From the IMG/VR virus record IMGVR_UViG_3300017963_000506, positions 1 to 36,461 of that record: a DNA stretch of 36,461 nt; one strand, given 5' to 3'. Both the position numbers and the translations under genes were made by a program. Below are positions 8,409 through 26,540 of this stretch, in pieces (the first letter of the stretch is position 1; each line of letters begins with the position of its first letter). The notes below the pieces were generated by a model. That model was not told the origin of the DNA and did no database searches. It was given only the letters and a program-made list of their open reading frames with translations. Origin of the DNA: a virus.

Positions 8409-8427
8409 GTAGTTGAAATCATTTAAT

Positions 8428-8618
8428 TATCAAATTCGCGGAGACATGGCAGATTCGGCCCAGAATCAACGTTATTTGGGGAGGTATTACTATATCGCCT
8501 TTTCAAAAACGTTGATTGTGAAGCGACTGTTTTCGTAGTGATTTCAATGGGTTATAAAAAAATGGCAAAAACTCTGGTTTCACAAAATAAAACCCCAATA
8601 AAAACAAGGGGTTAGAGA
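8428..8618 (+). promoter_or_regulatory. structured leader element, copy A (before connector gene)
   Basis: Gene-free 210-base gap. In order: GCGGAGA (8438-8444), AATCAACGTT (8464-8473) perfectly paired with AACGTTGATT (8508-8517), ATTTCAATGGGTTAT (8541-8555), and a 3' hairpin AACCCC (8591-8596)/GGGGTT (8608-8613) that covers the ribosome-binding site AAGGGG of the connector gene. The same ordered blocks recur at 15082 and 24914 with almost the same length. Bases 8510-8555 align without gaps to 24994-25039 at 33 of 46 positions. Confidence 0.65.
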
Positions 8619-9314
8619 ATGCGAGTTGTTGACGTCATGTCTTGGGCCACTAACAAACGGGAGATGAAGCAATATCTCGGCCTAGATGGAGATGTATCAG
8701 AAGATATCAAGCTCAGATTGTGGCTCGAAGCCGCAATCGAAGCCGCCGATCTTTACCTCGACAAGGATTTCATTCTCAATAAGGCCAGATTTGTCATTGA
8801 ATCTGGCGTTGGTGATGGAGACCTTTTTGAATTACAAGTGATTCCCGATGATGACTCGGGATATTCAGTAAGTTACACCGCATCATCGGGAGACACTTCC
8901 AGTAAAGTGGCGTCGGAACTTCGGGAAGATTTAGCCGAAAGCCTTGACGGATCGCGGTATTGGGATTTTGAGATTTATGGGGCCGGCCCCAATATCTGGG
9001 TTTACTCTGGAGATCCGGAAGTAGCATTTCAAGCGGATGCTACCTATACCCCCAGCGGAGGAACAAGCGGAATAGTTGAAACATATTTTTATGACGACAT
9101 TCCAAGCGGGGTCAAAATCGGAGTTTATGAATATGTAAAGGCCCTTAGGGAAATCTATCGGCGGGCTATCGGACTCAAGGGAGTGAAAACCGGCCAATTA
9201 GCCGAGACCTATGGTGGTGATGGCATGACCCCCAATGATGTGGCCTTTCAAGCGGGTAAAGGTTGGTGGTCTCGGTGGAAAAAGGATCTCTTAATTGACG
9301 GAAATGGTGATTGA
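8619..9314 (+). CDS. head-tail connector, gp6-like, with an inserted beta domain
   Basis: Ring protein expected to sit under the portal. Residues 10-60 (SWATNKREMKQYLGLDGD onward, LEAAIEAADLYLDKDF) and 160-190 (IPSGVKIGVYEYVKALREIY) give the helical connector fold. Residues 62-156 interrupt it with a beta-rich module (GVGDGDLFELQVIP ... GDTSSKVASELREDL ... GGTSGIVE) that also occurs in the tail sheath gene here. This makes the protein about twice the usual length. Start ATG at 8619 follows leader element A. Confidence 0.7.
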   Translation: MRVVDVMSWATNKREMKQYLGLDGDVSEDIKLRLWLEAAIEAADLYLDKDFILNKARFVIESGVGDGDLFELQVIPDDDSGYSVSYTASSGDTSSKVASELREDLAESLDGSRYWDFEIYGAGPNIWVYSGDPEVAFQADATYTPSGGTSGIVETYFYDDIPSGVKIGVYEYVKALREIYRRAIGLKGVKTGQLAETYGGDGMTPNDVAFQAGKGWWSRWKKDLLIDGNGD

Positions 9315-9741
9315 CAGAGATCATGGCTACAATCGGATTATTCGGAGTCTTTATGAGCTTGATGGCCTTGCGGCTTGGGTTGGAGTTTTGGACTCAAAAA
9401 CCAAATACAAGGATGGTGTTTCAACGGCAAAGGTTGCCGCAATTTGGCAGGCAAAAGGACAATGGTTGTCAGCAACCATTGACGCCAGAAGTTCGGTTTT
9501 TGCTACGGAATTTCAAGAGGCCCAATACAATATTTTGATACGGCAAATGGATCCAATTGATGCATTAGCCGACATTGCGGAAAGAGTTAGGAAGGACATT
9601 TTGTCAGGATTGAAGGGAATTGTAAGCGAAAGATCGGGTCTGCTTTTTTCTTCCATTCGCTGGAGAATTGGCATCGCTTCAGATCGTGGTCGATCTGGAC
9701 AACAGCCCAAATGGTCAAAAATTATCAGAGATGGCCCATGA
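9304..9741 (+). CDS. neck / virion morphogenesis protein (putative)
   Basis: 145 residues, overlapping the connector by 11 bases; ATG at 9304, with a GTG at 9307 as an alternative. It contains DGVSTAKVAAIWQAKG and MDPIDALADIAERVRKDILSGLKG, a pattern of phage neck or minor head proteins (HK97 gp10 or Mu-type virion morphogenesis groups). It ends SGQQPKWSKIIRDGP. Assignment rests on weak motifs plus position between connector and stopper. Confidence 0.5.
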   Translation: MVIDRDHGYNRIIRSLYELDGLAAWVGVLDSKTKYKDGVSTAKVAAIWQAKGQWLSATIDARSSVFATEFQEAQYNILIRQMDPIDALADIAERVRKDILSGLKGIVSERSGLLFSSIRWRIGIASDRGRSGQQPKWSKIIRDGP

Positions 9742-10106
9742 CGATTTTGGCACCTAAAAAATTCACCATTAGACGGCAATCGGAAGCCGGTTCCTATGTC
9801 TATGGGAAATGGGTGCCATCGACAACTACGGATCAATTCACAGTAATAGGATCCCTTCAACCCTTAAATGCTCGCGAAATTGAAATGCTACCCGAGGGAA
9901 CAAGGACCAAGGCGAGATTTTCCTTTTACTGTGAGTCGAATCAGCCTTTTTTAAAAACAACAGATCTAAACGGACAGAAAGGATCTGATAGATTCCTTTG
10001 GAATGGAAATGAATATTTGGTTTTTGCAATTGGAGATTGGCAACTCCACTTGAACGGGATCCCTCACAAGGCCTATGTTTTGATTGAGGTCGGTAATGAC
10101 GAATAG
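9738..10106 (+). CDS. head closure / stopper-like protein (putative)
   Basis: 122 residues starting at ATG 9738 within an ATGA overlap. Small beta-rich protein: FTIRRQSEAGSYVYGKWVPS, then FTVIGSLQPLNAREIEMLPE, and LWNGNEYLVFAIGDWQLH near the end. This order and composition resemble phage stopper (head closure) proteins that cap the connector. Supported mainly by gene position. Confidence 0.5.
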   Translation: MTILAPKKFTIRRQSEAGSYVYGKWVPSTTTDQFTVIGSLQPLNAREIEMLPEGTRTKARFSFYCESNQPFLKTTDLNGQKGSDRFLWNGNEYLVFAIGDWQLHLNGIPHKAYVLIEVGNDE

Positions 10107-10605
10107 CTTTTTCACATTATTGGAGACCTGGATCAAAGGGGCCTTGCCCACAGTGACCAATGTGATTCAACGGAGTCAAATAAACGCCGATGCCCCAAGG
10201 CCACCCAAGCCTTATGTAGTGATCCATTTCCGAAAAGGCATGCCCGAATCAGCCACCCCATATGTTTTTTGCAGCGAAACTGTGGATCCAGAGGAATCGG
10301 CTGATGTTTTACAGTATCATTCTTGGCAAAGACGAGGGACTTTAGTCGTTGATATCTTTGACGAATATTCGACAGATTTAATTGATGATTTGATGCTTAG
10401 TTTACATTTGCCATCCAATTTGGAGATTTTCAAAACTGCCAACGTGGCAATCCACCCAATCGGAGACTATTTGGATACAACGGAATTGAGGGATGTGAGT
10501 CATGACCCCTCGGTTCAAATGGAATTTGCAGTGAACAGCATTCAATCCATGACGGAGGGAACGCCATGGATTGATGAAATAAATGTAGAAATCGAAACGA
10601 CTTAG
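10096..10605 (+). CDS. tail terminator / neck protein, LIC_12616-like
   Basis: 169 residues; ATG at 10096 overlaps the stopper gene, with GAGG upstream. PRPPKPYVVIHFRKGM, then WQRRGTLVVDIFDEYSTDLI and the C-terminal SVQMEFAVN give the alternating strands of phage tail terminators. The family I recall from its Leptospira member has the same PxxPYxxI opening. Expected to end tail-tube growth and join the tail to the neck. Directly precedes the sheath gene. Confidence 0.6.
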   Translation: MTNSFFTLLETWIKGALPTVTNVIQRSQINADAPRPPKPYVVIHFRKGMPESATPYVFCSETVDPEESADVLQYHSWQRRGTLVVDIFDEYSTDLIDDLMLSLHLPSNLEIFKTANVAIHPIGDYLDTTELRDVSHDPSVQMEFAVNSIQSMTEGTPWIDEINVEIETT

Positions 10606-10615
10606 GAGCGAAAAA

Positions 10616-11986
10616 ATGGCAACATGGGATTTGAACGTAGTTGTCAATATTCTGTCCACGGCCCTCGGAGTGACCAGGGCAACATTTGGCAGAATTATGT
10701 TGATGACAGAAGATGTCACATTTTCCGAAGATTACAAAATTTATGAGACAAATCAGGATGCTCAAGACGATTCCACACTGGGAACGGATGTAAAATCGGC
10801 TGTGGCAACATTTTTCAGTCAGACTCCACACCCCCCGGATGTTGCCGTTGGGAAAAAAGCATCCGATGAGGCCCAATCCATCAAATGGACAATTGGGGCT
10901 GGGGTTGCCGAAAATGACGAATTCGACATCGAAATTGTTCCATTTCACGGATCTACAATCACTGGCACGGATACCGCCGGGGCCGGTGATACCGAAACCG
11001 ATGTTGCAGCGGCCCTTAGGGCGGATCTTACAACAAAATTGGCCGCCGAAAATTTGACCGTGGGCGGATCCGGAGCCGATGTCACTGTAACTGCCGATAA
11101 TCCCGGCGAACCATTTTCCTATGATTCGGAATATCGGGATTTGGGATCGGGAACATCGGGCATTACCACAGTGGTAACCCAAGCCAATGTGAACTATGAA
11201 ACCGAGCTTTCGGATCTCAATGGCATTTTTTCGACCTGGTATGGTCTTGCGATTGATTCCCGTGATAAAAACGACATTTGGTATGCTTCTGATTTTGCCG
11301 AAGCCAACACGAAAATGTTTTCATGCCAAACCTCAGATTCGGATGTGAAAACGGCAGCATCTGATAATGTTTTGGGTTACATGAAGGACCAAGCATTGAC
11401 TCGAACATTCTGTTCATGGCACCATGACGATACCGAGTGGTTGGATTTTGGTTGGATCGCTCGTTTTCTCGCAATTGATCCGGATGTTGCCTCCACAACG
11501 GCGGCTTATTTGACAATTGTCGGAATAACCCCAAATTCGTCAACTGACATCGACGCCACGGCCAAAGCAAACATCATAGCTCAAAATGGCAATCTATACC
11601 TAACTTTTTACGGCGTTAATTGCATTAATAATGGGGTTTTGGTCAATGGTGATTTTATTGATGTTTTGCTGGCTCACGATTGGCTTGAGGCAAGAATAGA
11701 GGAGGCCGTTGCTCAATTAAAGCTTGATCAAGCGGCCCTCGGAAGCAAAATCCCTTACACCCAAGCCGGAATCGATATGGTCGCAGCTCAAGTAAGGCGA
11801 ATTCTTTCCCGTGGGGAGTCAATTGGTCATCTTGCCGCTGGTGAATCGAGTCTTGATATTCCGACAAGGGCGAGTATAGATCCAGCTGATGTTTTGGCCA
11901 GGGAATTCAATGACTTGAAGGCTGAAGCGCTTCTTTCGGGAGCAATCCAGAAATCAACCATAAATGTCGCGGTTTTGAAATCATAG
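10616..11986 (+). CDS. tail sheath protein, DUF3383 type
   Basis: Contractile sheath subunit, 456 residues. The DUF3383-like N-terminus is VVVNILSTALGVTRATFGRI and the C-terminal core includes DWLEARIEEAVAQLKLD, IPYTQAGIDMVAAQVRRIL and IQKSTINVAVLKS. Residues 93-190 form an inserted beta module (GVAENDEFDIEIVP ... AGDTETDVAAALRADL ... GSGTSGITT) shared with the connector. A sheath plus gp25/gp47 baseplate genes shows this is a contractile tail. GGAGCG precedes the start. Confidence 0.85.
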   Translation: MATWDLNVVVNILSTALGVTRATFGRIMLMTEDVTFSEDYKIYETNQDAQDDSTLGTDVKSAVATFFSQTPHPPDVAVGKKASDEAQSIKWTIGAGVAENDEFDIEIVPFHGSTITGTDTAGAGDTETDVAAALRADLTTKLAAENLTVGGSGADVTVTADNPGEPFSYDSEYRDLGSGTSGITTVVTQANVNYETELSDLNGIFSTWYGLAIDSRDKNDIWYASDFAEANTKMFSCQTSDSDVKTAASDNVLGYMKDQALTRTFCSWHHDDTEWLDFGWIARFLAIDPDVASTTAAYLTIVGITPNSSTDIDATAKANIIAQNGNLYLTFYGVNCINNGVLVNGDFIDVLLAHDWLEARIEEAVAQLKLDQAALGSKIPYTQAGIDMVAAQVRRILSRGESIGHLAAGESSLDIPTRASIDPADVLAREFNDLKAEALLSGAIQKSTINVAVLKS

Positions 11987-11998
11987 GCGAGGTAGAAA

Positions 11999-12436
11999 AT
12001 GGGTGAAACAACACGAACGTATAATTTGGATGATGTAACCCTAGTATTAGGGACAAATATCATCACTGAATTCATCAAAGGCGAAGCAATCACTGTCTCA
12101 AAAGATGATGATGATTGGGCAGTAACTCAGGGATCCCATGGATCTGTCGTAAGGGCTAAAAAGTTCAATAATGTCGGGACTGTAGTCATACGGACAGTTC
12201 AGGGAAGTCCGACAAACAAACTCCTAAATGACATGATGTATGCTGATATTGCTTCTGGCGAAGATTCTTTTTCCCTCCAGTTGAAAGACAATCGGGGTGA
12301 ATCTGTGGTTTCCGCTCCACAATGTTGGTTTACGAAGCCGGCCGACATGACTTTTGGGGAAGAAGTTGGCCAGTTGGAATGGAGTATCAAAGCCGGCCAT
12401 CTAAAAATGGAGTATGGGTCTAACGTTAGCGCTTAA
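11999..12436 (+). CDS. tail tube protein, DUF3277 type
   Basis: 145 residues directly after the sheath, as expected. The N-terminus TRTYNLDDVTLVLGTNIITE and the middle DDDDWAVTQGSHGSVVRAKK match DUF3277-type tail tubes of small myophages. GTVVIRTVQGSPTNKLLNDM follows. It should form the inner tube that DNA passes through. GGCGAGGTAG precedes the ATG. Confidence 0.85.
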   Translation: MGETTRTYNLDDVTLVLGTNIITEFIKGEAITVSKDDDDWAVTQGSHGSVVRAKKFNNVGTVVIRTVQGSPTNKLLNDMMYADIASGEDSFSLQLKDNRGESVVSAPQCWFTKPADMTFGEEVGQLEWSIKAGHLKMEYGSNVSA

Positions 12437-12450
12437 AAAACAGGGGAAAA

Positions 12451-12978
12451 ATGCAAGCCCAATTTAATACCACAATTTCGGATTCAGAAGGTCAAGAACA
12501 TGAATATATGACGGTGGCCTTCCCAACGAGCGAGGGAACCGATCTACTTTTGACCTTGGGCCAAATTGTTGGCGGTCCGTTTGGCTATGCCATAAAATCC
12601 ATGTTTTCCTTGTCCGGATCGGATGAAATGGATCTCGATGTGGATTTGAGTCAATTGCCAACAATTATAGAAAGAATTCCGCAGATGCTGGTCAAGGAAG
12701 GCGGATCAAAACTGATTCAGAAAATCCTTTCCAAAACAAGGCGTTGCAATGGTGACGGAAAATGGGTAGCTTTAAAAGAACAGCGACATTTTGACTCGGT
12801 TTATGCCTCAAATTATGTGGAAATGTTTAAGGCAATTGCCTGGGTATTAGAGGTCAATTTTGCCCCTTTTTCTCAGGACGGTTCGCCGTCTTGGAAAGGG
12901 CTCTGGACAAAGCTGACTTCCTTGATCCCGATAACCCCCGCCGGGAGCGGGATGATAAATATCGAGCCGAACTCTTAA
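12451..12978 (+). CDS. tail assembly chaperone, short form (gpG-like)
   Basis: 175 residues encoded between tube and tape measure, where tail chaperones lie. The N-terminus is a small beta domain (QAQFNTTISDSEGQEHEYMT) followed by helices. The frame stops at 12978. Another frame, open through the overlap and ending at 13175, can be joined by a -1 shift at CCCTTTT (12864-12870) followed by a hairpin, giving a 241-residue long form. This matches the G/GT arrangement of many tailed phages. Preceded by AGGGGAAAA. Confidence 0.8.
   Translation: MQAQFNTTISDSEGQEHEYMTVAFPTSEGTDLLLTLGQIVGGPFGYAIKSMFSLSGSDEMDLDVDLSQLPTIIERIPQMLVKEGGSKLIQKILSKTRRCNGDGKWVALKEQRHFDSVYASNYVEMFKAIAWVLEVNFAPFSQDGSPSWKGLWTKLTSLIPITPAGSGMINIEPNS
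12864..12893 (+). promoter_or_regulatory. -1 ribosomal frameshift site: CCCTTTT plus hairpin
   Basis: CCCTTTT at 12864-12870 is read C CCT TTT in the chaperone frame and fits the X XXY YYZ rule. A hairpin with GACGG (12877-12881), loop TTCG and CCGTC (12886-12890) starts six bases later; the stem can extend outward to CAGGACGG/CCGTCTTG with one G-T pair (12874-12893). Confidence 0.75.
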
Positions 12979-13175
12979 AAAAGCAAGATGAAAAGCGGAA
13001 AATGATAGATGTATTTGCCAACGAAATCAAGGATTTCTTCTTTTCATGGCCGGAATGGTTTGTTTACGCGAAAGGGGGTCATGACCTAACCGAAATTCGG
13101 CACAATTGGAGTCTAATAGACCTTTTTGATGCATATTATCATCTCCGTTTACGGGCCTTGATCGCGGGGGAATAA
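12870..13175 (+). CDS. tail assembly chaperone extension, -1 frame (T domain)
   Basis: About 101 residues read after a -1 shift from the upstream chaperone: first FSGRFAVLERALDKADFLDP, then a charged helix (RERDDKYRAELLKKQDEKRK) and a helical C-terminus (WPEWFVYAKGGHDL, FDAYYHLRLRALIAGE). There is no ATG with a ribosome-binding site at its left end, so expression as a fusion is the simple reading. It would bind the tape measure during tail assembly. Confidence 0.7.
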   Translation, partial: FSGRFAVLERALDKADFLDPDNPRRERDDKYRAELLKKQDEKRKMIDVFANEIKDFFFSWPEWFVYAKGGHDLTEIRHNWSLIDLFDAYYHLRLRALIAGE

Positions 13176-15034
13176 TGCCTGTCATAAGATCCCTTCTCAC
13201 TCATTTCGGATTTAAAATCGAGTCTGGAAAACTACAGAATTTCCAGAAACAAGTCGGAGCCACAAAGGGACAGTTGCGGGTTGCGGCCCGTGAATCTAGG
13301 AATATGGGGAGGCAAATACGCGGTATTGGAAACATGGCCCGTTACGCAGTTGCGGCTTTTGTCGGATCTCGTTTGGTCAAGACTTTCACGACAGGATTTT
13401 CTGAAGGGGTAGATGCCGCAGCGAAAATGTCCAAAGCCATGGGAATAAATGTCGAGACATATCAAGGGCTTGGGCATGCGGCTCGGTTGAGTGGGGCATC
13501 AATTGAAGATGTTGGAAAATCCATGATGCAATTGGGCAAGCGGGCCCGCGATGCATCTGAAGGATCCAAAAAACAACGCGATGCATTTCGTGAACTCGGT
13601 CTTGAAATCAAAGATTCATCCGGAAATCTGAAAAATCAAGATGTTCTTTTGATGGAAGTCGCGGATCGCTTCAAAAAAATGCCAGATGGGACTACAAAAA
13701 CGGCTTTGGCAATGGAAGTTTTCGGACGGGCCGGCGCAAAAATCATCCCGCTTTTAAATGAGGGCTCAAAAGGCATTAATGCGATGATGCTTGAAGCTCG
13801 CCAGCTAGGAATTGTACTCTCAAAAGAAGATGCCAAAGCCGCTGAGGAATTCAACGATCAGCTTTTGAGATCAAAGGCCGCGTTTCAAGGTCTAAGAAAT
13901 GCTATTGCAAGGGAAATTTTACCTTATCTCACCCGATTGCTCCGTGGTTTCCAACAATGGTATCGGGAGGGAGATAATGCGGTCAAATTATTGGGGGTTT
14001 TGAAGGCCGTGGCAATTGCCGCCGGAATCGCTTTGGCTGGAATTGTGACTGCTAAAGTCATTGGGCTTTTCAAGGGATTTTACGGTGCGGTTAAATCTGC
14101 AATAATTATCCTAAAATCCCTAGGAGCCGCGGGAACCCTAGCAAAAATCAAACTTTACGCAATGTTGGCAATAATCATCCTATTAGTTTTAATAGTGGAA
14201 GATCTTTGGCGATTTGCAAGGGGGGATAAATCGCTTATTGGGAAATGGCTTGGGGAGGATTCGGAACAAGCTAAGGAGCTCAGGAAAAATCTTCAGGATC
14301 TCGGGAAAGCCTTAATTGGTTTTTGGAGGGAGTTAAAGCCTCATTTATTCAAGGTAATCAAGGCATTAGTACCAGTTTTTATCAATTTGCTCAAAGTCAT
14401 TGTTCCGATTTTGCCAACATTGGCCAATATTTTTGTTAAATCATTGAATTTCCTTGCGAAAGCACTTGCATTTGTTACCGAGTGGGCCACTTGGCTAACG
14501 GTTATGGCCAAAGAGTATGAACAGGAGATTGGATATCTGAAGAAAATTTGGGAGTATGCTCAGTGGATTATTAGTCCATTTACCGCACTTTATGATCTTT
14601 TTACCGACCTCGTTTTTCATAGCAATCTTTTGAGCCAAATTTGGGAAACAATGAAGTCGGTCTGGAATACTTTGGGCAATGCGATCAAGATTGTCGCAAA
14701 TACCGTGGAATCTATTTGGAAAAAAACCATCGGATGGATTTGGAATCAAATCGAAAAAATCATTCAGGCCACCGAGGGGGTAGTTAGCAAACTCGGAATT
14801 GGTAAAATAGGGGCCGGATTATTTGAAAACATCAGTAAGGCAACAAACGCTCAAATTAGGAAATCGATGAATCAGCAAAATCGGATATCGGTAGGAACCA
14901 TTTCAGTTAATGTTTCTGGCTCGGCTGATATGGGATCAGAAGAATTTCAAAAGGCGGTTCAAACAGGGACTGCAGATGCCCTAAATAATTTCGTCTCAGA
15001 TGCTTTTTCCAATTTGAGACCTGTAACGACATAA
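13175..15034 (+). CDS. tail tape measure protein
   Basis: 619 residues, start overlapping the chaperone stop (TAATG). The N-terminus is helical and basic, followed by a tape-measure core: GVDAAAKMSKAMGINVETYQ, ARLSGASIEDVGKSMMQLG and TKTALAMEVFGRAGAKIIPL. Two strongly hydrophobic segments (AVAIAAGIALAGIVTAKVIG and LYAMLAIIILLVLIVEDLW) could enter the host membrane during injection. The C-terminus ends SVGTISVNVSGSADM and a short helix. Its length sets tail length; at 619 residues the tail should be fairly short. Confidence 0.9.
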   Translation: MPVIRSLLTHFGFKIESGKLQNFQKQVGATKGQLRVAARESRNMGRQIRGIGNMARYAVAAFVGSRLVKTFTTGFSEGVDAAAKMSKAMGINVETYQGLGHAARLSGASIEDVGKSMMQLGKRARDASEGSKKQRDAFRELGLEIKDSSGNLKNQDVLLMEVADRFKKMPDGTTKTALAMEVFGRAGAKIIPLLNEGSKGINAMMLEARQLGIVLSKEDAKAAEEFNDQLLRSKAAFQGLRNAIAREILPYLTRLLRGFQQWYREGDNAVKLLGVLKAVAIAAGIALAGIVTAKVIGLFKGFYGAVKSAIIILKSLGAAGTLAKIKLYAMLAIIILLVLIVEDLWRFARGDKSLIGKWLGEDSEQAKELRKNLQDLGKALIGFWRELKPHLFKVIKALVPVFINLLKVIVPILPTLANIFVKSLNFLAKALAFVTEWATWLTVMAKEYEQEIGYLKKIWEYAQWIISPFTALYDLFTDLVFHSNLLSQIWETMKSVWNTLGNAIKIVANTVESIWKKTIGWIWNQIEKIIQATEGVVSKLGIGKIGAGLFENISKATNAQIRKSMNQQNRISVGTISVNVSGSADMGSEEFQKAVQTGTADALNNFVSDAFSNLRPVTT

Positions 15035-15081
15035 ACAACAAGTGTTGTAATGCAAGATTTGGTAAACCATCATACAAAAAA

Positions 15082-15273
15082 TAAAATCAACGGAGAGCCT
15101 TCAAAATGGCTTCAGAATCGACGTTTTTTCGAGACGCACAATCATATTACCCCCTATAAGAACGTCGATTTTCCCGAATTCGTTAACAATATCATATGGT
15201 TAGAAATGGGATACATCCTATCAAATGACAACTATGAGCAAGAAAGTCAACTGCCAACAAGGGTTGTTTGTCA
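15082..15273 (+). promoter_or_regulatory. structured leader element, copy B (before Dit-like gene)
   Basis: Gap of about 240 bases after the tape measure. ATCAACGGAGA (15086-15096), AAAATGGC and CAGAATCGACG, with AATCGACGTT (15116-15125) perfectly paired to AACGTCGATT (15161-15170). A diverged ATATCATATGGTTAG block lies at 15189-15203. Near the start codon CAACTGCC can pair with GGGTTG over the ribosome-binding site. Compared with copy A, the stem has A-T changed to G-C on both arms. A frame at 15050-15277 lacks a ribosome-binding site and is not counted as a gene. Confidence 0.6.
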
Positions 15274-15858
15274 ATGATTTATGCCTTTGAAAAAAATGGT
15301 AATCCATTGGCTCCAGCTTTCGCCCTGGATGCAACCCTTGAGGAAACCCGGACCGACAATTTCACCGTCACCAAAAAGGCAATCGAAACGGGAGCCAACG
15401 TTTCGGATTATGTCTGGGCGGAACCGAAAGAATATTCTGGATCTGGAATAATTACAGCAAGCCCATTGGATGGATTTTATTCCAAAGATCGGATCAAAAG
15501 ACAATTTGATGCTCTCGTGAAATTGGCGGATAGCCGGACCGAATTGACGGTTGTTTTCGGATGGTGGGTTTTTGACGGAATATTGTCCAATTTAGTTACG
15601 ACAAGTTCACAATCAATCGGAGATGCTCTTGAATTTTCCTTCACCTTTTCAGAAATTGTCCAATTTCAATATGAGACCACAGATATTCCGCCAAGCCGAC
15701 TGAAGGGCAAGGCCAAACGCCGGCGGGGGACGAAAAAAGGGACTGCCCAGACTCCCAAAACCCCAACCGGAAAAAATCAAAAATCCAGTCTTTTGTACAA
15801 GGGTTTCAACGGCCTTTCAAATGCCGGCGGAATTATCAGTAAGTTGACAGGTGGATAA
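15274..15858 (+). CDS. Dit-like baseplate protein (putative)
   Basis: 194 residues from ATG 15274; a TTG at 15268 is an alternative. It opens with ATLEETRTDNFTVTKKAIET then ANVSDYVWAEPKEYSGSGII, the pattern of Dit-like / DUF6046-type proteins that sit between tube and hub. RIKRQFDALVKLADSRTELT and LVTTSSQSIGDALEFSFTFS follow. The tail is basic and disordered (KGKAKRRRGTKKGT). Position after the tape measure agrees. Confidence 0.7.
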   Translation: MIYAFEKNGNPLAPAFALDATLEETRTDNFTVTKKAIETGANVSDYVWAEPKEYSGSGIITASPLDGFYSKDRIKRQFDALVKLADSRTELTVVFGWWVFDGILSNLVTTSSQSIGDALEFSFTFSEIVQFQYETTDIPPSRLKGKAKRRRGTKKGTAQTPKTPTGKNQKSSLLYKGFNGLSNAGGIISKLTGG

Positions 15859-18039: not shown

Positions 18040-18063
18040 CAAACAGAGTGAAAAAGGTATCAT
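18036..18063 (+). promoter_or_regulatory. promoter: TTGACA - 16 - TATCAT
   Basis: TTGACA (18036-18041), 16-base spacer, TATCAT (18058-18063), one mismatch from consensus. It shares TTGACAAACAG with the sites at 4630, 5922 and 28774. The expected start point falls at the ATG of the next gene (18070). Confidence 0.5.
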
Positions 18064-18069
18064 AAAAAT

Positions 18070-19257
18070 ATGGCAACAAGAGAAATTACCGCGGCCGGGC
18101 TCACGGTCAAAACCACAGACGAAGTCCGGGAAGATCTGCGGGATGCAATTCATGGATCTAGTGAATTCGGAGAAGAAACATCTGTTGGATCATCTTCTGT
18201 CATGGGCCAGATTATAGATGTTCATGCCGACTCTATTTCAGAAATGGATGATTTGGCTCAAGCCCTTTATGATGCTTTCAATCTGGATTCGGCCGAGGGG
18301 GTAGCCCTTGACAATCTTGCCTCCCTTGTTGGAGTGATCCGAAAAGCCGCAACATATTCAACGGTTACACTAACCCTTGGGGGTGTGGCCACAACAGTAA
18401 TTCCAGCTGGATCAAGGGCAAGAGTACCGGATGGAACAATTTTCGCGATTGATGAGGAAGCAACAATTGGAGGGGGTGGAACCGTCGATGCGGATGCAAC
18501 GGCAACGGAAACTGGACCCCTTGAAGCTGCCGCCGGTTCTGTTACTGAAATTGTCGACGCGGTTTCCGGGTGGAACACGGTAACAAATGCCGCGGATGCA
18601 ACCCTTGGGACAAATACGGAAACGGATGAAGAATTACTGGCCAGACGGGAACGGAGCCTTGCCATTGGTGGCAATTGCACAGATCAAGCGATCCGAGCCA
18701 ATTTGGAGCAATTGGAGGATATTACATCCGCAACCGTAATTTCTAACCGCACTCTTGTAACCGATTCTTTTGGGATCCCCGGAAAGGCTTTTTTGTGTGT
18801 CCTATGGCCAGATTCGGGAATCGATGAGGATCGTGTGGCCGAAACCATCTGGGCTTCGATGCCGGCCGGAATTTATCCCCATGGGAGCGAAGAAAAGCTG
18901 ATAACGGACGACCAGGGATATGAACAAACCGTCCGTTTTGAATATGCGACTCCATTAAGCATCTATTTGATCGCAAATGTCACAACGAAAGCCGGATATC
19001 CTATTGATGGGGACGATTTAATCGAAAACGCTCTTTTAAATTTCGGGAATGCCTTTCGGCCTGGCCAAAATGTCGAACCGGATTATTTTGAGGGATATGT
19101 GCTATACGATTCCAACGATCGGGTTGAGGGGATCGCAGCAATTACAATTCTTGCAAAGGTTGGGGGTTGGCCGGGGGGCGGGGATGATGTTCCAATTGAT
19201 ATTTCCTTGGTGAATATTGCTGATTTTGATTCGGCCCGGATCCAGGTGAACAGTTGA
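18070..19257 (+). CDS. baseplate wedge protein, gp47 / baseplate J family
   Basis: 395 residues. Motifs of baseplate J proteins: VGSSSVMGQIIDVHADSISE, LYDAFNLDSAEGVALDNLAS near residue 75, GGVATTVIPAGSRARVPDG, then DEELLARRERSLAIGGNCTD and VSGWNTVTNAADATLGTNTE. It forms the wedge ring with gp25. AAAGG lies about 11 bases before the ATG, but the promoter above would start the RNA at the ATG itself, so it may be read from both a long and a leaderless message. Confidence 0.88.
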   Translation: MATREITAAGLTVKTTDEVREDLRDAIHGSSEFGEETSVGSSSVMGQIIDVHADSISEMDDLAQALYDAFNLDSAEGVALDNLASLVGVIRKAATYSTVTLTLGGVATTVIPAGSRARVPDGTIFAIDEEATIGGGGTVDADATATETGPLEAAAGSVTEIVDAVSGWNTVTNAADATLGTNTETDEELLARRERSLAIGGNCTDQAIRANLEQLEDITSATVISNRTLVTDSFGIPGKAFLCVLWPDSGIDEDRVAETIWASMPAGIYPHGSEEKLITDDQGYEQTVRFEYATPLSIYLIANVTTKAGYPIDGDDLIENALLNFGNAFRPGQNVEPDYFEGYVLYDSNDRVEGIAAITILAKVGGWPGGGDDVPIDISLVNIADFDSARIQVNS

Positions 19258-19838
19258 CAATACCAACAAAAATCACAAATCACGTTGAATTGGTCATTGG
19301 TAATCTTCTTTGGCAATTTAGAAACTCTCCTAAACTTGTTGAATTGGTTAGTATTTTTGCTACTGAAATCCAAGACCTTGAAAATCTTTATAATAACCTT
19401 TTTGAAAAACGATATTTGGATAATGCTGCTGGGGTCCAATTGGATCTTTATGGGAAAATAGTCGGTTGGAGCCGACAGGGATTTGATGATGATGATTTTA
19501 GAAGACTTATAAAGGTCGCAATTGTCATTAATCAAACAGACGCCCAAATTGATGAAATCACTTACATAATTGCTGAGTTAATTGATGCCGGATCTACTCC
19601 AATCCGATATGTCCAACGCGGTCGAGCTCACTATTCTCTTGATTGGATTGTGGACCCACCAACAGATCCGGATTGGCTAAGGACAATTGAAGTAGTAATG
19701 GAAAAAATTACCGGATCCGGAATATCGTGGGATACGGTTGAGGGAACTGATGAAACGAACCCTGTTTTCCGATTCGACACAGTGGGATCAGGTTATGATT
19801 TGGGCGGATATGCTCAAAATACCGAAAGCATAACATAG
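19254..19838 (+). CDS. baseplate-region protein, DUF2612-like
   Basis: 194 residues, starting with TTG at 19254 that overlaps the previous stop; AGGTG lies upstream. FRNSPKLVELVSIFATEIQD, YLDNAAGVQLDLYGKIVGWS and FRRLIKVAIVINQTDAQIDE match DUF2612, a family encoded right after baseplate J that probably links wedge to fibres (gpI-like role). The C-terminus is Gly/Thr-rich (FDTVGSGYDLGGYAQN). Confidence 0.75.
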   Translation: MTIPTKITNHVELVIGNLLWQFRNSPKLVELVSIFATEIQDLENLYNNLFEKRYLDNAAGVQLDLYGKIVGWSRQGFDDDDFRRLIKVAIVINQTDAQIDEITYIIAELIDAGSTPIRYVQRGRAHYSLDWIVDPPTDPDWLRTIEVVMEKITGSGISWDTVEGTDETNPVFRFDTVGSGYDLGGYAQNTESIT

Positions 19839-19845
19839 GGAAATC

Positions 19846-21180
19846 ATGAGCGAAATAGGCGGAACAAAACCAGATTTTTCAAAATATCACTGGAATGATG
19901 GTGGAACACCAGAGCCACAATCTGAACCTAACGAATCAAAAAAAGATGCTGGATTCCCCTTTCAAGATATCCCACCGGCTGACGAGGAAAATTGGTGGCG
20001 AGATTTTGGATCCCAATTGCTGAATTATTTAGGGACAACCCATATCCGCGAATTCGATTATTTAAATGAAGCCATTGCGGCAACGAATCCACCGGATGTT
20101 TTTCGCGTTAGGGCACCCGCCGCTGGAATTAACGATAGGGCTGGATCTGTTTTCAATGTCCAGGGATATCAAGGGGCCGTGCCAATCACTGATTCATGTA
20201 CGGACGGTTATCAATATTACTACCTACAGGGAACCTGGTTAAATGCGGCAAATACTTTGACTGGGGGGTATATTTGGCAAGCATGGCCTAGAAACCCCTT
20301 CGCCGGGAATGCGATATGTTGCGATTGCGATGGTCAATATATTGTCGTTTGCTATCCTTACAATCCGACTCCATATGATACGTTTCTTTTAGATGCAAGC
20401 GGTGGGGTTCAAGCAAGTTGGAATATTGGAACATCGACACCAAATACCGATGTCGTTGATGTGGCAATCAACGGAAAATATCTTGCCGCATTGCGTCAAA
20501 TGGCAGGGACTCCGATAGGAGCCGCCATTTGGGTTTATGACATTTCTTCACTTCCGGCTACACTAGTTGGCACGACCCCAACTTATACCACAGGTGGAGC
20601 CATTACCAATGCCGGCCAAATTGTCATTGATGATTATTACGCACATGCAGTTTGGAATGATTATTATCTAAAATGCCAATTATCAGCCCCCGTTGCAACA
20701 ATTAGCTCTATTGTTAGCACGTCGGTTTTTACCGCTTCAACTCCATTTAATGCTGTTACAACGGATGGATTAGGGGTCTGGATTGGTACGAATAGGAGCG
20801 CTCTAATTGCTGGCGGAAATGCTGATGTTTTGGTTGTGGAAAGGCCAACAAATACAATACTGGACACAAAGGATTACACAATTGACGTTCAAGACATTTG
20901 TTGCGATGACCATTACATCATTTTTTCACGAACTACACCGAGTGTTCTTTTGGGGATTTGTGAGAAAATAAATACAAAATATGTTCATGGGACAATTAGC
21001 GGCCGTCGGGTTTTCGGCCACAGTTGTGATGGGATTTCATTTTTCGGCTCTGATGGGGCTAACAATATTACTCGAAATTGGATGGGTAATCCAACGCGGC
21101 TTTTCATGCGATGTCAAGGGACAGATTATTCCCGAAAACCTTTTTACAATGCGGCAATTCCAATGACAGACGAGGCATAA
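19846..21180 (+). CDS. tail fibre / propeller-like receptor-binding protein (putative)
   Basis: 444 residues after the baseplate genes. The N-terminus is polar and Pro-rich (HWNDGGTPEPQSEPNESKKD), likely the attachment part, with a helix (DEENWWRDFGSQLLNYLGTT). The remainder is repeated short beta segments with recurring D-G-x-Y/W-I/V patterns (CDCDGQYIVVCYPYN, VAINGKYLAALRQM, VTTDGLGVWIGTN, CDDHYIIFSRT), consistent with a beta-propeller. Several Cys pairs could form bridges. Function is inferred from position and repeats. Confidence 0.6.
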   Translation: MSEIGGTKPDFSKYHWNDGGTPEPQSEPNESKKDAGFPFQDIPPADEENWWRDFGSQLLNYLGTTHIREFDYLNEAIAATNPPDVFRVRAPAAGINDRAGSVFNVQGYQGAVPITDSCTDGYQYYYLQGTWLNAANTLTGGYIWQAWPRNPFAGNAICCDCDGQYIVVCYPYNPTPYDTFLLDASGGVQASWNIGTSTPNTDVVDVAINGKYLAALRQMAGTPIGAAIWVYDISSLPATLVGTTPTYTTGGAITNAGQIVIDDYYAHAVWNDYYLKCQLSAPVATISSIVSTSVFTASTPFNAVTTDGLGVWIGTNRSALIAGGNADVLVVERPTNTILDTKDYTIDVQDICCDDHYIIFSRTTPSVLLGICEKINTKYVHGTISGRRVFGHSCDGISFFGSDGANNITRNWMGNPTRLFMRCQGTDYSRKPFYNAAIPMTDEA

Positions 21181-21181
21181 A

Positions 21182-21646
21182 ATGAGATTTATGACAATCG
21201 TAAGCATAATCATCCTGATATTACTCGCAGGGCTGTTTCTGGCTTGTGGCGGAAATTTACAAAATGGATACCGAACGACATTATTGGTCGGAAACACACG
21301 GGACTCAATTTCAAAAGCACTCGCCGGATTCTGTAAGCAAAGACACGAAAAATGCATTCAAGACAAAGCTGAATATAAAAAATGTATTGCCGAATGCAAG
21401 GAAGCCCTTAGATTTTGGACCGAAAAAATCCTTCCCATAATCAATGCGTCGATCAAGATAACAAGTGGCGTCTTGGAATCAGCGACAGAAAAAAAACAGA
21501 AAAAAATCAATTGGATCAAGGTGCTGAAACCAGCGATTTGTGGAGTCTTCGGGGCCCTTGATCATCTAAAAATATTCATGGGAGATCATTGGAAAAAAAT
21601 TCAATCTGGATTTTCCCTCGGAAAGGCTGTCTGCGATGGCAATTGA
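21182..21646 (+). CDS. predicted phage lipoprotein, 154 aa
   Basis: N-terminal signal MRFMTIVSIIILILLAGLFL followed by ACGGN: a lipoprotein signal with Cys at position 22. The lipobox F-L-A-C is looser than the usual L-A/S-G/A-C. The mature part has four more Cys in a charged helix (CKQRHEKCIQDKAEYKKCIA, then EC), then a helical C-terminus. An inner- or outer-membrane role at fibre genes suggests superinfection exclusion or host-surface interaction, but no homologue is recognised. Confidence 0.6.
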   Translation: MRFMTIVSIIILILLAGLFLACGGNLQNGYRTTLLVGNTRDSISKALAGFCKQRHEKCIQDKAEYKKCIAECKEALRFWTEKILPIINASIKITSGVLESATEKKQKKINWIKVLKPAICGVFGALDHLKIFMGDHWKKIQSGFSLGKAVCDGN

Positions 21647-21827
21647 ATCAATGATTACAATGGCCGCGGCCATCATTAAAGTTGTTTGGGAGTTTATTGA
21701 TCAATATGCCAAAGATCATGGATTACCCAAAGAAGAACTAAGAAAAAAAGTTCTTCAAATCGCAAAAGAGCATGATAAGTCTGCCGAGGAACTTCTGAAA
21801 TTGATAAAAAAGACGGAAAATGAATAA
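21636..21827 (+). CDS. small helical protein, 63 aa
   Basis: ATG at 21636 inside the end of the lipoprotein gene; a second ATG at 21651. The first 20 residues are hydrophobic (MITMAAAIIKVVWEFI), the rest charged helix (KEELRKKVLQIAKEHDKSAE). Possibly membrane-associated and coupled to the lipoprotein. Not recognised. Confidence 0.5.
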   Translation: MAIESMITMAAAIIKVVWEFIDQYAKDHGLPKEELRKKVLQIAKEHDKSAEELLKLIKKTENE

Positions 21828-22303
21828 TGCCCGGTTGGGTAACAAAAGTCACATACAAACCAGCTTTTCAAGCTGAATACAATCCAATACTCCCTCAATT
21901 GGCAAGGGAGCGTGTGATCCATTTTCCCTATCTGCTGATTGGCGGAATTCCTACAGTAGATTCATGGGTCAGCGTCAAATCGGAAATTGATTCCGAGGGA
22001 TCGGCTGAACGGTGGTGTCAATTGGATATCGCCAATCCAGACCTGGCAATCCCGGGGGCAATTTGGTATGTTGGCGAAATTCCGGCAATCCCTTCCGATA
22101 TCCCTGACCCCCCGGTAATTGATGCCCAATACAAGGATGACTTACTATCTGCCGGTATAATCTTTTTGAATTTGCTAAAAAATCCAGAATGGAACGTTTT
22201 TGTTGAGCGATTTCGATTGTTAACAGGTGATCAAATTGAGAATACCCCTATTTTCAAGGCAGCTAGGGATATTTCGGCCTATATTGGTGAATTGTGGAAA
22301 TAG
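21827..22303 (+). CDS. hypothetical protein, 158 aa
   Basis: Starts in a TAATG overlap. A soluble protein with a beta-rich N-terminus (HFPYLLIGGIPTVDSWVSVK), Pro-rich middle (IPAIPSDIPDPPVID) and helical C-terminus (DDLLSAGIIFLNLLKN). Not recognised. It lies among fibre genes and may be a fibre chaperone or linker. Confidence 0.55.
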   Translation: MPGWVTKVTYKPAFQAEYNPILPQLARERVIHFPYLLIGGIPTVDSWVSVKSEIDSEGSAERWCQLDIANPDLAIPGAIWYVGEIPAIPSDIPDPPVIDAQYKDDLLSAGIIFLNLLKNPEWNVFVERFRLLTGDQIENTPIFKAARDISAYIGELWK

Positions 22304-23919
22304 ATCTTTATAATGATTTTTCAACATCATTTGTGGGTGCCGTGGACAATTCCGACGGAGTAGGCCTACCAAGGCCAACGCCCTTGTTGCCAAACTGGAT
22401 CCAAGATGGATCTCCTCCTAATGGTTGGGGAGGGGGTAGTACCAGCTTTCGCTATATTCGTGGCGGTTGGGTTCATGGTGGATATGCCTATTTTTGCGTT
22501 CAATCAACTGGGGGGACCGGTCGCGGTATTTATCGCTACAGTTTAAGCGGAACAGATCCTGTTACGATGACTTACGATAGCTATGTTTCGCTTTCATCAA
22601 TACTTACCGGAGCAACGTATTGGTGCCTGTCAACACATTGTGCTTTTTACGATGGCTCAAAAGTGGTTTTGGTGGGGATGAATACCGGTGCGGGTTATCA
22701 CAGTAATGTGATTGGGCAATGGACTGTTTCCAATTGGCCGTTTACCTCGACTAATGCAGATTGGATATCGTCCCTCCCAACCTATGTTGGCGGCTATGTT
22801 TCGGATGCTGCTGTTTACGAGCCTTGTTGTGCATTGGGGGCGAATGATTTTTATGTCTCGTCTTATCGTGCTGGCCAGGTCCATATTGTGTCTAGATCAG
22901 ATGGATCGTTTTCAGGTCCAATGGTTTGGCGGGCATTTTACGAATTGACTGCCAGTGCTTATGTTTTATGCGAACATGGCGATGGCAAACCATTTGCGGG
23001 TGCATATCATGCTGGAGGTAATTTAAGCCTCTGGAATACGAGTACTCCAACAGCCTGGGCGGAGGATACTGTAATTTGGCCATCGGCTGGTAGTGTTTAT
23101 ACTACCCCTCAGCATATTTTTAAACGGGCAACCCAGGCTTTAAATAATGGTTATTATGCAGAAAAATATAACGACATTACACGATATGAATTGACCTTAT
23201 TGGGATATCCCTCGACAACCATTGGAGCTTGGACCGGGATTTACAACCGAGGATTATTGTTGCATGATACGGGAACCGGCGCTTATATTGAAGCGCCTAT
23301 TCCAATAAATACATATTTACGGGCAATTCCTAGGGCAATTCTTACCAATAACTTTCATCGATTTGTTGAAATTAATTCACTTCCCTATTTTTTAGCATGG
23401 AATCAAGAAACCAGAGATCATGAGGCTGAAAACCCAGGTGGAAATGCAACTACTTTTTACGGTATATCCGCGTGTCCGGTTGGCCCTGGGAAGGTCACAT
23501 ATTCTAAAACAATTTCAGTTGGCACAACAGGGAAACCAACAGGATTATTTTTCAGTATACCAGCCTCAAAAGGAAACTATTCCAGATCAGAGCATTATTC
23601 TAAGCATCGCATTAGATTACGAGTTAACGGCGGAGCGTGGTCGGATTGGAGATCGGGCGAACAAGAATTAAATAATCTCCAAAGTGTTGTAAATGGTAAA
23701 AATGTATGGCCTAGTGAATTTTTAAGTGGACAGACAATTGATATTGAGCATGAATTGAGTTCAGGTTGGCCTTATGATTGGGAAACAGTTAAGGGAAATC
23801 CAGGGGAGTCTGGCGATCCAATTACACCGAATGTAATTTCGGCAGATAATGGCCCCCCTAGGCATATTCGGGCGATTTTGAGGTTAGATCCCAAGGAGTT
23901 AGGAGGGGGGTTATTCTGA
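22294..23919 (+). CDS. large fibre / receptor-binding protein (putative), propeller-like
   Basis: 541 residues from a GTG at 22294 overlapping the previous stop. Repeated blocks of aromatic- and Gly-rich beta segments (RGGWVHGGYAYFCVQSTGGT, THCAFYDGSKVVLVGMNTG, ADWISSLPTYVGGYVSDAAV) suggest a beta-propeller like the protein at 19846. A separate C-terminal domain (LRVNGGAWSDWRSGEQELNN) looks like a beta-sandwich tip. It is rich in Trp and Tyr, common in sugar-binding fibres. No enzyme motif seen. Confidence 0.55.
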   Translation: MEIDLYNDFSTSFVGAVDNSDGVGLPRPTPLLPNWIQDGSPPNGWGGGSTSFRYIRGGWVHGGYAYFCVQSTGGTGRGIYRYSLSGTDPVTMTYDSYVSLSSILTGATYWCLSTHCAFYDGSKVVLVGMNTGAGYHSNVIGQWTVSNWPFTSTNADWISSLPTYVGGYVSDAAVYEPCCALGANDFYVSSYRAGQVHIVSRSDGSFSGPMVWRAFYELTASAYVLCEHGDGKPFAGAYHAGGNLSLWNTSTPTAWAEDTVIWPSAGSVYTTPQHIFKRATQALNNGYYAEKYNDITRYELTLLGYPSTTIGAWTGIYNRGLLLHDTGTGAYIEAPIPINTYLRAIPRAILTNNFHRFVEINSLPYFLAWNQETRDHEAENPGGNATTFYGISACPVGPGKVTYSKTISVGTTGKPTGLFFSIPASKGNYSRSEHYSKHRIRLRVNGGAWSDWRSGEQELNNLQSVVNGKNVWPSEFLSGQTIDIEHELSSGWPYDWETVKGNPGESGDPITPNVISADNGPPRHIRAILRLDPKELGGGLF

Positions 23920-24290
23920 TGGCAACCAAAGTCCCCTATAATAATTCTACGCAAATGGGAGTGTTTTTAGCCAAAGGGCCAGCCCCTTCCGGAAATGCGA
24001 AATATTCGCTCCAAATCAAATCTGGCGAAGATGCCTTGATCTCGTTTCCATCCGAAGTGACGATTACCTCAGGAAATCAGTATCAGGTCTTCCAGGTCAC
24101 ATGGATTCAACAGGGTACAACAATTCTACAAGCTCAACTGACCGAATATGATGGAAATGCAGTAACTGGTACAATTTTTGAGCAAACAGTTATCTGCGTT
24201 GATCCCCCTGAAGCTGGAGGGGGAGGGACATTGGAAGCGACCGGAATAATTACCCTACCAACTCAACTGAGAGTATCGGTGGAAATATGA
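23919..24290 (+). CDS. fibre-associated hypothetical protein, 123 aa
   Basis: Starts in a TGATG overlap. Beta-rich; NAKYSLQIKSGEDALISFPS followed by QYQVFQVTWIQQGTTILQAQ looks like an Ig-like surface domain. A Gly-rich linker (EAGGGGTLEATG) precedes a C-terminal strand. Probably a virion decoration or fibre accessory; this is inference. Confidence 0.5.
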   Translation: MATKVPYNNSTQMGVFLAKGPAPSGNAKYSLQIKSGEDALISFPSEVTITSGNQYQVFQVTWIQQGTTILQAQLTEYDGNAVTGTIFEQTVICVDPPEAGGGGTLEATGIITLPTQLRVSVEI

Positions 24291-24679
24291 CCGCAACAGC
24301 TGATTTTTTCAATTATACAATTGTCGAAGGGGATGATGTTCAAATCACCTGGACCCTTACCGATTCGGACACAGGAAATCCTTATACATTTTCCGGGGTT
24401 ACCAAGCTTTGGGTTTGCCTTAAAGTGGACTTTTCAGATCTTGATGATGATGCAATTGTCAATATCAATTCCATTGATGACCCAACTTACTGCAAGTATG
24501 GATCCGTGGATGTTGGAGACGGTCAAGTTTGGGCATGGATCCAGGATACACAAACCGCTGGATTGGGAGAATACGAATATGTCTATTATGACATTCAGGT
24601 ATTGGCAGACGGAAAAATCCTGACTCTTTGCCGTGGTAAAATCCCATTTGTTTCCGAAGTGATTCAGGAGAATATATAA
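24287..24679 (+). CDS. BppU-like N-terminal domain protein (putative), 130 aa
   Basis: 130 residues with ATADFFNYTIVEGDDVQITW, LTDSDTGNPYTFSGVTKLWV and YYDIQVLADGKILTLCRGKI: the pattern of the BppU N-terminal domain (egD...i.w.l.d..G.py) of phage baseplate/fibre proteins, without any C-terminal receptor part. Overlaps the previous gene by four bases. Likely a short fibre adaptor. Confidence 0.55.
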   Translation: MTATADFFNYTIVEGDDVQITWTLTDSDTGNPYTFSGVTKLWVCLKVDFSDLDDDAIVNINSIDDPTYCKYGSVDVGDGQVWAWIQDTQTAGLGEYEYVYYDIQVLADGKILTLCRGKIPFVSEVIQENI

Positions 24680-24882
24680 TGAAATTGTCAGACAAACAAC
24701 AAAGGGCCTTTTGGTGGTCAAGTCGAATTTTCGCATTGTTAGCCTTGCTTTCCGGAGCCATTGCCGCCTTTGGATTTATGCCCCCTTTAGGATCGCAAAT
24801 ATCAGGAGCGGCCGCGGCTTTGGCCGGGATTGTTTCCCGATGGTGTGAACAACATTTGCCGCCGAAAGAGAAAAAAGAGTAG
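24679..24882 (+). CDS. holin candidate, two-TM, 67 aa
   Basis: 67 residues: charged N-terminus (KLSDKQQRAFWWSS), two hydrophobic segments (RIFALLALLSGAIAAFGFM and SQISGAAAALAGIVSRW) and a charged C-terminus (PPKEKKE), the plan of small class II holins. It starts in a TAATG overlap and is followed, after leader element C, by the cell-wall enzyme candidate. This placement supports holin. Confidence 0.65.
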   Translation: MKLSDKQQRAFWWSSRIFALLALLSGAIAAFGFMPPLGSQISGAAAALAGIVSRWCEQHLPPKEKKE

Positions 24883-24913
24883 GCATACTTACATATAGAA
24901 AGGTAATAAAGCT

Positions 24914-25106
24914 TACAATCAACGGAGAAGGGCCAAAATGGCCCCCTAATCGCTTTAAAAAAAAGATGGATGCTAACCCATGAACTTTTTTTTCATTGAT
25001 TGTAGGGGAACATTTTCCTTACTAATTTCAAAGGGTTATGCGATTTGGCCGATTTTCCAAATTACCCTGGGAAAAACCCCAATGATTTCAAGGGGGTGAA
25101 AATATC
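24914..25106 (+). promoter_or_regulatory. structured leader element, copy C (before endolysin-like gene)
   Basis: ATCAACGGAGA at 24918-24928; TACAATCAA (24914-24922) pairs with TTGATTGTA (24996-25004). Inside, GGGCCA (24930-24935) and TGGCCC (24939-24944) form a hairpin with an AAA loop. ATTTCAAAGGGTTAT is at 25025-25039. Near the start codon ACCCC (25076-25080) pairs with GGGGT (25093-25097) over the ribosome-binding site. Distance from GGAGA to ATG is 183, against 178 in copy A and 182 in copy B. Confidence 0.65.
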
Positions 25107-26472: not shown

Positions 26473-26540
26473 GGCTCGCTGAATGGTTTAGCACTTGGCT
26501 GTTAACCAAGAGTATGTAGGTTCGATTCCTACACGGGCCT
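26473..26540 (+). tRNA. tRNA-Asn (anticodon GTT), shortened D arm
   Basis: Acceptor GGCTCGC (26473-26479) pairs with ACGGGCC (26533-26539), except the seventh pair. The anticodon stem is CTTGG/CCAAG with loop CTGTTAA (anticodon GTT). T arm GTAGG/CCTAC with a 7-base TTCGATT loop; variable loop of 5. Only 14 bases separate acceptor and anticodon stems (19 or more is usual), so the D arm is poor; CTGA/TTAG is the best fit. Discriminator T, no encoded CCA. It may be functional, a decoy, or degenerate. Confidence 0.6.

Follow-up and report, generated by a model that had tools for sequence, protein, structure and literature searches.

The 36,461-base window analysed here, the virus record IMGVR_UViG_3300017963_000506, carries an element of ~190 nt in three gaps between genes and, in inverted orientation, a fourth copy of it, all within the region of particle-building genes. 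The four copies, old and diverged, are homologous, far beyond chance. Copy A (8432..8618, plus strand) lies before a connector-like gene, copy B (15081..15276, plus strand) before a Dit-like gene whose ATG at 15274 is overlapped by the last bases of the element, and copy C (24912..25106, plus strand) before an endolysin-like gene. The 3' end of copy D (3281..3474, minus strand) overlaps the stop codon of the gene 2978-3283. The borders of all four copies are approximate. We tentatively favour the interpretation that the element is a structured, dispersed and cis-acting cassette in the 5' untranslated region of late gene blocks, with D as a displaced copy.

Kinship of the copies was assessed by a hold-out test, in which three copies were aligned and converted into an nhmmer profile, and the window was searched for the fourth. 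Each of the held-out copies was recovered: A with 44.9 bits (E-value 2.3e-13, 8433-8615), B with 30.3 bits (E-value 7.2e-9, 15086-15205), C with 30.8 bits (E-value 5.1e-9, 24915-25097) and D with 30.8 bits (E-value 5e-9, 3454-3281, minus strand). The best scores in 60 dinucleotide-shuffled windows per model were 10.2, 11.8, 8.7 and 10.3 bits, respectively. Among the best seven matches per model, the only others above 8 bits were the hairpins of A and B against their own complement (at most 24.6 bits). Hence, the profiles find four copies and no fifth in the window. With a profile built from all four, the aligned stretches were 8432-8617 (A), 15082-15275 (B), 24914-25103 (C) and, on the minus strand, 3472-3280 (D). 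Copy D had first appeared on the minus strand in a self-comparison of the window. By plain BLAST such a self-comparison shows the copies weakly, as they are only about half identical to each other: 50% for A and B (92/185), 53% for A and C (98/184), 52% for A and D (92/178), 42% for B and C (82/193), 48% for B and D (88/185) and 51% for C and D (94/185).

The four-copy alignment contains 41 invariant columns. Between columns 23 and 193 there is no gap in B and D and a gap of one base each in A and C, so that the spacing is nearly fixed. The flanks that were aligned showed no homology between the four sites. At the edges the alignment is less certain: the held-out match to D stops short of the CGGAGA end, at which a 6-base insert is needed in the joint alignment, and homology of the 3' third of B rests on the joint alignment, because the held-out match to B covered 15086-15205 only. 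A preliminary description of this DNA, made from the letters alone, had proposed related elements before the genes starting at 8619, 15274 and 25107. Alignment and profiles bear this out, and the family is real and larger than stated, copy D having been missed. The ungapped likeness of A and C at 33 of 46 positions was reproduced exactly, as were the distances from GGAGA to the start codon in B (182 nt) and C (183 nt); in A this distance is 179 nt, not 178. The length in B was counted by hand from the sequence, where an extra GGAGAGCC misleads an automated count. The gaps are indeed related, but the ordered blocks described as shared by all three need correction, since ATTTCAAWGGGTTAT is present in A and C only and AATCNACG in C precedes CGGAGA.

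In its general layout, the element comprises a hairpin closed by an invariant AATC/GATT, a 3' end near an invariant CAAGG and, in A-C, a 5' start near CGGAGA. By itself, CGGAGA is common in the window (11 sites on the plus and 4 on the minus strand). AATCNACG is found on the plus strand at 8464 in A, at 15085 and 15116 in B and at 24917 in C, and on the minus strand within the elements from 8517 and 15170; it also occurs outside the elements at 20466, at 29838 and, on the minus strand, at 25529. A further motif, missing from the list given in the preliminary description, is AATGATnTCAAGGGGTTA, which is repeated on the plus strand exactly 60 nt apart both in A (8537-8554 and 8597-8614, with 2 and 3 mismatches) and in C (25021-25038 and 25081-25098, with 3 and 2 mismatches). 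Copy D holds it once at its 3' end (3281..3298, minus strand, 1 mismatch), and a 10-base part of it (3290-3299) occurs again 60 nt away (3350-3359). With up to 3 mismatches the motif has 5 matches in the window against 0.15 expected, the pattern itself being drawn from these copies. In the complete four-copy profile a lag of 60 is not conspicuous, and a 10.5-base period of conservation is weak (p 0.044, one of seven periods tried).

The consensus helix is a long hairpin, here termed HP2. It spans 8461..8520 in A (arms 8461-8476 and 8505-8520, 88% complementary), 15116..15170 in B (arms 15116-15128 and 15158-15170, 92%) and 24948..25001 in C (arms 24948-24963 and 24986-25001, 75%), all on the plus strand, the arms of 13-16 nt being separated by 22-29 nt. 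In D, the core of the hairpin (3376..3434, minus strand) consists of AGAATC at 3434-3429 and GATTCT at 3381-3376, corresponding to alignment columns 43-48 and 96-101. This hairpin is also the best inverted match in the four-copy profile, with 4.79 compared to 3.73 for the best of 20 column permutations. When the copies were folded singly, the z-scores against shuffles were -3.60 (A), -2.13 (B), -2.67 (C) and 0.07 (D), or -3.64, -1.41, -2.98 and 0.34 with slightly other borders. The complement strands gave, within the same borders, -1.21, 0.30, -2.71 and -0.94.

Folded jointly, the copies reached consensus energies well below those of column shuffles for A+B+C (-17.5 versus a mean of -3.9, z -6.3, 0/150 as low), for A+C+D (-14.8 versus -4.8, z -4.5, 0/150) and for all four (-4.3 versus -0.7, z -3.8, 2/150). 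The complement of A+C+D was not beyond column shuffles (33/150), and the difference between sense and complement folds exceeded that in shuffles, only 1/200 (A+B+C), 0/200 (A+C+D) and 1/200 (all four) being as extreme. Such a strand asymmetry favours RNA over a DNA dyad. Of the 31 pairs in the A+B+C structure, 13 have changed on both sides, compared to 6.1 in shuffles (0/500), and 82.1% of cells pair, compared to 71.4% after shuffling and 39-60% when the structure is slid. The fold of the other three copies was kept in the held-out copy at 19/32 pairs in A, 22/38 in B, 12/16 in C and 19/30 in D (p 0.0025-0.012 against letter shuffles), although sliding by a single column gives a nearly or fully equal count for A (18/32) and D (19/31) and sequence likeness by itself accounts for part of this retention. 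A fold of the sense strand as RNA is likely, if not proven. Held-out profiles, consensus folds and strand asymmetry support the family of structured elements that had been proposed; pairing, which the preliminary description had named as a check together with a covariance search, is significant within the four copies, while the homologues were not found in limited searches.

In all three sense copies the conserved 3' end coincides with the ribosome-binding region, as CAAGG is located 9 (A), 11 (B) and 13 (C) nt upstream of the start codon. The earlier placement of the elements as leaders before gene blocks thus holds for A, B and C; it does not hold for D, which opposes the surrounding genes and has no start codon behind it. 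A ribosome-binding site hidden by the fold, acting as a switch, was considered and rejected: folds of single copies do pair the AAGGG region, but when 49 gene starts of the same phage were folded, taking 150 upstream and 60 downstream bases for each (rank 1 being the most paired), A-C did not rise above the background of the phage. Pairing of the Shine-Dalgarno-like motif behind A, B and C ranked 23, 19 and 11 of 32. In A and C, GGGTT might instead pair with AACCC, a candidate noticed by eye. Promoters and terminators were sought by simple scans of four 401-base stretches, the promoter scan covering sigma-70-like sites only. Such matches, each agreeing in 9 of 12 positions, were absent around A and C; B and D each had three in their surroundings, in places that differ. 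One promoter-like site of B, TTGGTA-17-TAAAAT (15059-15087), directly precedes CGGAGA. The single terminator-like site in the four stretches (24809-24826) lies upstream of C, inside the gene 24679-24882.

If the element is a leader cassette, it would fold on the sense strand into the long hairpin closed by AATC/GATT, and in A-C its 5' strand with CGGAGA could pair with a later U-rich strand. The 3' segment would carry the motif at 60-nt spacing, which is clear in A and C, and end with CAAGG in the ribosome-binding region of A-C. Duplication would have carried the cassette to the edges of late gene blocks, where it may set their expression after transcription, through binding of a phage or host protein, through processing of the mRNA at the long hairpin, or both; D would be a copy displaced into the opposite orientation. 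Transcription of the element, its action in cis and the step at which it acts are inferred. A bolder version, possible but rather unlikely, is that these copies represent a new class of structured phage RNA of ~190 nt, present in both orientations: a mobile expression cassette at the junctions of the packaging, head, tail and lysis modules, all tuned by one regulator or processing event, with the inverted copy serving as an antisense or free RNA. Should the leader interpretation be true, it would offer a handle on the post-transcriptional coordination of late gene blocks in an uncultured phage, and on regulatory pieces that move between modules. The copies are weak in BLAST self-comparison and lie outside Rfam, and such families may easily be missed in other phages.

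Several observations weigh against a leader cassette. The sample is small, all four sequences coming from a single contig, and limited searches brought up no homologue beyond it. Copy D opposes the surrounding genes and no start codon follows it closely; when held out it scores as high as B and C, which is not what a decaying leader would show. Since D lacks a start codon and is nevertheless as well kept as B and C, the plain leader interpretation is weakened, and a pure leader would not explain D. The 3' half of B bears little likeness to the other copies: identity is 45% with A, 34% with C and 42% with D. As for the fold, D alone is no better than shuffles with either set of borders, the complement of C alone folds well (z -2.71), and the complement of A+B+C, too, folds beyond shuffles (-12.3, z -2.99, 0/150). 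A+B+D (z -0.84, 24/150) and B+C+D (z -1.66, 10/150) give a weak consensus. The pair count on the A+B+C fold tilts towards that fold because three of its four rows built the structure, and for the HP2 core alone covariation is not above shuffles (74/500), four of its nine pairs being invariant. The windows before the start codons behind A, B and C rank 39, 34 and 29 of 49 in pairing, and the simple scans did not reveal a promoter or terminator common to the four copies.

With copy D taken into account, the cis-acting leader cassette was kept as the most likely single reading, but a DNA cassette, free small RNAs and a neutral repeat remain serious rivals. Regulation might reside in the DNA itself, in a cassette of late promoter and operator that works in either orientation, in which protein sites are formed by the 60-nt motif and by a half-site AATCRACG, present first directly and then inverted, and the spacing reflects helical phasing. 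We regard this as unlikely. It would suit a spacing that is nearly fixed despite 42-53% identity, the recurrence of AATCNACG on both strands of the elements, the spaced motif in A and C, the weak 10.5-base period, the promoter-like site before CGGAGA of B and the gap cassettes of two distant relatives, CRP-901 and MW202455, which look promoter-like by eye. DNA dyads, however, would not be expected to show the strand asymmetry of the fold; AATCNACG is present at three places outside the elements as well, the 60-base lag is not prominent in the whole profile, and the sigma-70-like matches are lacking at A and C and differ in place at B and D. Alternatively, the gaps might house free-standing small RNA genes that act in trans, the closeness of A-C to start codons being a matter of compact packing. 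Copy D, opposite in orientation and kept as well as B and C, speaks for such genes, as do a sense-strand preference that holds with D included (A+C+D) and elements that fill most of each gap, in the case of D only if 3498-3698 is a gene. But their 3' ends show no intrinsic terminator and the copies no shared promoter in simple scans, the conserved end coincides with the ribosome-binding region of every sense copy (three of three), and Rfam holds no match; we consider these RNA genes quite unlikely.

Less probable again is a dispersed repeat without a present regulatory role, either an old mobile or duplicated segment or a trace of module exchange. Four sites in two orientations, with no homology in the aligned flanks, would fit such a history, and so would another partial duplication in the same genome. 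A near-direct repeat, CAACAAG[T/G]GTTGT (12/13), which may be due to chance, is found at both ends of the gap of copy B (15036-15048 and 15255-15267). Neutral copies at this level of identity should, however, show many length changes, of which columns 23-193 have none (B, D) or one base (A, C), and neutrality leaves the compensatory pairs and the strand asymmetry unaccounted for. Very improbable, finally, are small protein genes or their remnants, with an open frame of 75 codons across copy B (15050..15277, plus strand) as the intact one. Its stop codon overlaps the next start as ATGA, and its codon score of 0.047 per codon falls in a zone of overlap, above the 5% point of in-frame sequence (0.001) but below the 95% point of out-of-frame sequence (0.085). 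A reading frame of A runs open across 62 codons and stops near the end of the element, though its first ATG, GTG or TTG comes only past the middle. By eye, A, C and D share an in-frame stop at roughly corresponding alignment positions. Identity between copies shows no third-position periodicity (0.51, 0.45 and 0.50), the frame of B is closed at the matching place in A and C, and by eye also in D, and family searches with the B frame returned nothing of weight (best PHROGs E-value 0.21; best Pfam E-value 0.015, below the cut-off). As identity lacks periodicity and frames are not kept, the coding explanation was set aside; the codon score alone decides nothing. The B frame is probably not a gene and the cassette probably non-coding.

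Relatives of the element were sought in several collections. In Rfam 15 the element reaches the gathering score of no family, and a lenient search of the four loci turned up only a tRNA and one weak DUF805b match outside the element. Searches of viral contigs with the connector, endolysin and sheath proteins yielded no relative, the terminase yielded 6 loci at 35-37%, and DNA-pattern searches of the same kind of contigs gave at least 120, 6, 23 and 5 stretches. The profile run over 163 viral loci found no convincing copy, its best match reaching 12.0 bits (E-value 0.15, 34 model positions) and the second best, in Aeromonas phage vB_AsaM-56, 11.7 bits (E-value 0.2). In genome contigs, a single terminase recovered no relatives from 23 stretches; a terminase alignment recovered 534 confirmed relatives, and no copy was found at the loci of the best 80 (best E-value 0.98). 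BLASTN of A-D against phages gave short matches only (E-value 0.6 or higher), and BLASTN of C alone against plasmids gave none. A covariance model detected a copy in 0 of 7 related records besides the window itself. Among 12 genomes it matched one of the Rickettsiales with an E-value of 0.0027; this hit was rejected, as the profile gives it 4.4 bits over 47 bases and by eye it is the start of the gene for initiation factor IF-1. Scans with a stricter filter returned 0/369, 0/290 and 0/297 genomes, with only 6-8 candidates scored per genome in the rows listed; an empty answer from these scans shows nothing. That the element was not found elsewhere is weak evidence, because the searches relied on short patterns matched exactly, on proteins of distant kinship with their best matches only and on these genome scans. 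Literature searches listed no description of this element, which is no proof of absence.

Repeated expression cassettes are already known from phages; the present one stands apart in its size, divergence, fold and place. Phage T7 has RNase III sites, short repeated hairpins between genes on its polycistronic mRNA. The repeated hairpins between genes are a likeness to the element, whereas the T7 hairpins are not known to have a conserved frame of ~190 nt or a conserved ribosome-binding end. The put/nut RNA of lambdoid phages makes the polymerase that has transcribed it read through terminators. Repeated non-coding gap cassettes known as PeSL, reportedly treated by Arbiol in 2010 and Comeau in 2014, are said to mediate gene shuffling. 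PeSL stands for the promoter-early stem-loop cassettes of T4-type phages, as cited in PMC4503421. They share with the element that they are repeated, non-coding and placed in gaps, but they combine an early promoter with a stem-loop terminator, whereas simple scans showed no shared sigma-70-like promoter or terminator here and the genes are late ones. A terminator stem-loop of the PeSL type was absent from the copies in a simple scan.

In layout, the element appears most like the Start-Associated Sequences with extension (SAS/ESAS) of the cluster K mycobacteriophages, from which it differs in sequence. The paper on these (PMC3203893) describes dispersed copies directly before start codons, mostly in large gaps. 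They cover the ribosome-binding region, and about half of them have an inverted repeat upstream; four genomes have a single copy in opposite orientation with no obvious gene start. SAS is a well conserved 13-bp sequence and ESAS has 17-bp arms with a spacer of mostly 4-13 bp; both belong to the non-structural half of the genome, are rare outside cluster K and are assigned no function there (PMC3203893). Judged by this account, the likeness is one of layout only: A, B and C, three of the four copies, adjoin start codons and have an inverted repeat upstream, and inverted copy D without a start codon resembles the lone inverted SAS. The element differs in being ~190 nt long, diverged, located in the structural half and provided with a longer hairpin. 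Allowing up to 2 mismatches, the window contains no match to the 13-bp SAS sequence GGGATAGGAGCCC.

Repeated cassettes were also seen in the Roseobacter phage CRP-901 and in MW202455, distant relatives by terminase (36% and 34% identity). As in our phage, they lie in several gaps (four and three, respectively) and end at or near a start codon; in contrast, they measure ~60-100 nt, look promoter-like by eye and belong to the non-structural region. The covariance model found no copies of A-D in either record. By eye, the cassette of CRP-901 has an AG-rich leader in its four gaps (1985-2100, 2620-2720, 3235-3350 and 4240-4345 of the examined locus) and a GC-rich hairpin upstream of two of them. 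The three gaps of MW202455 (29735-29825, 30500-30612 and 32935-33055) are in a leftward region.

The genes of the window read like those of a contractile-tail phage, the annotated set comprising terminase, portal, head protease, major head protein, sheath, tape measure and baseplate. The terminase is 41% identical to that of Aeromonas phage vB_AsaM-56, a distant relative, and identity of the sheath protein is at most 28% among the matches listed; the protein and DNA searches run found no close relative. In vB_AsaM-56, two annotated HNH endonuclease genes (20786-21364 and 38727-39308), ~65% identical in DNA, stand among the structural genes. Behind copy A, the gene 8619-9314 is connector-like by a weak PHROG match (E-value 3.2e-4) and has no Pfam match; behind copy B, 15274-15858 is Dit-like (PF21821, 3.4e-19); and behind copy C, 25107-25982 is endolysin-like with a peptidoglycan-binding part. 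The gaps that hold the copies are 8409-8618 (A), 15035-15276 (B), 24883-25106 (C) and 3284-3497 (D), each filled for the most part by the element, with D on the condition named above; the small frame 3498-3698 adjoining D is a doubtful gene (codon score 0.038 per codon).

Elsewhere in the window, the only match in the Rfam search was a tRNA (26473-26540, 48.8 bits). Its anticodon loop CUGUUAA would give GUU (Asn) by eye, four model positions are missing between the acceptor and D arms, and it is absent from the ARAGORN output. The gap before the gene 34225-34611 (34154-34224) contains a second copy of the C-terminal 24 residues of the protein encoded at 32726-33040, a partial gene duplication in which 34162-34239 and 32965-33042 are 77% identical in DNA over 78 bases.

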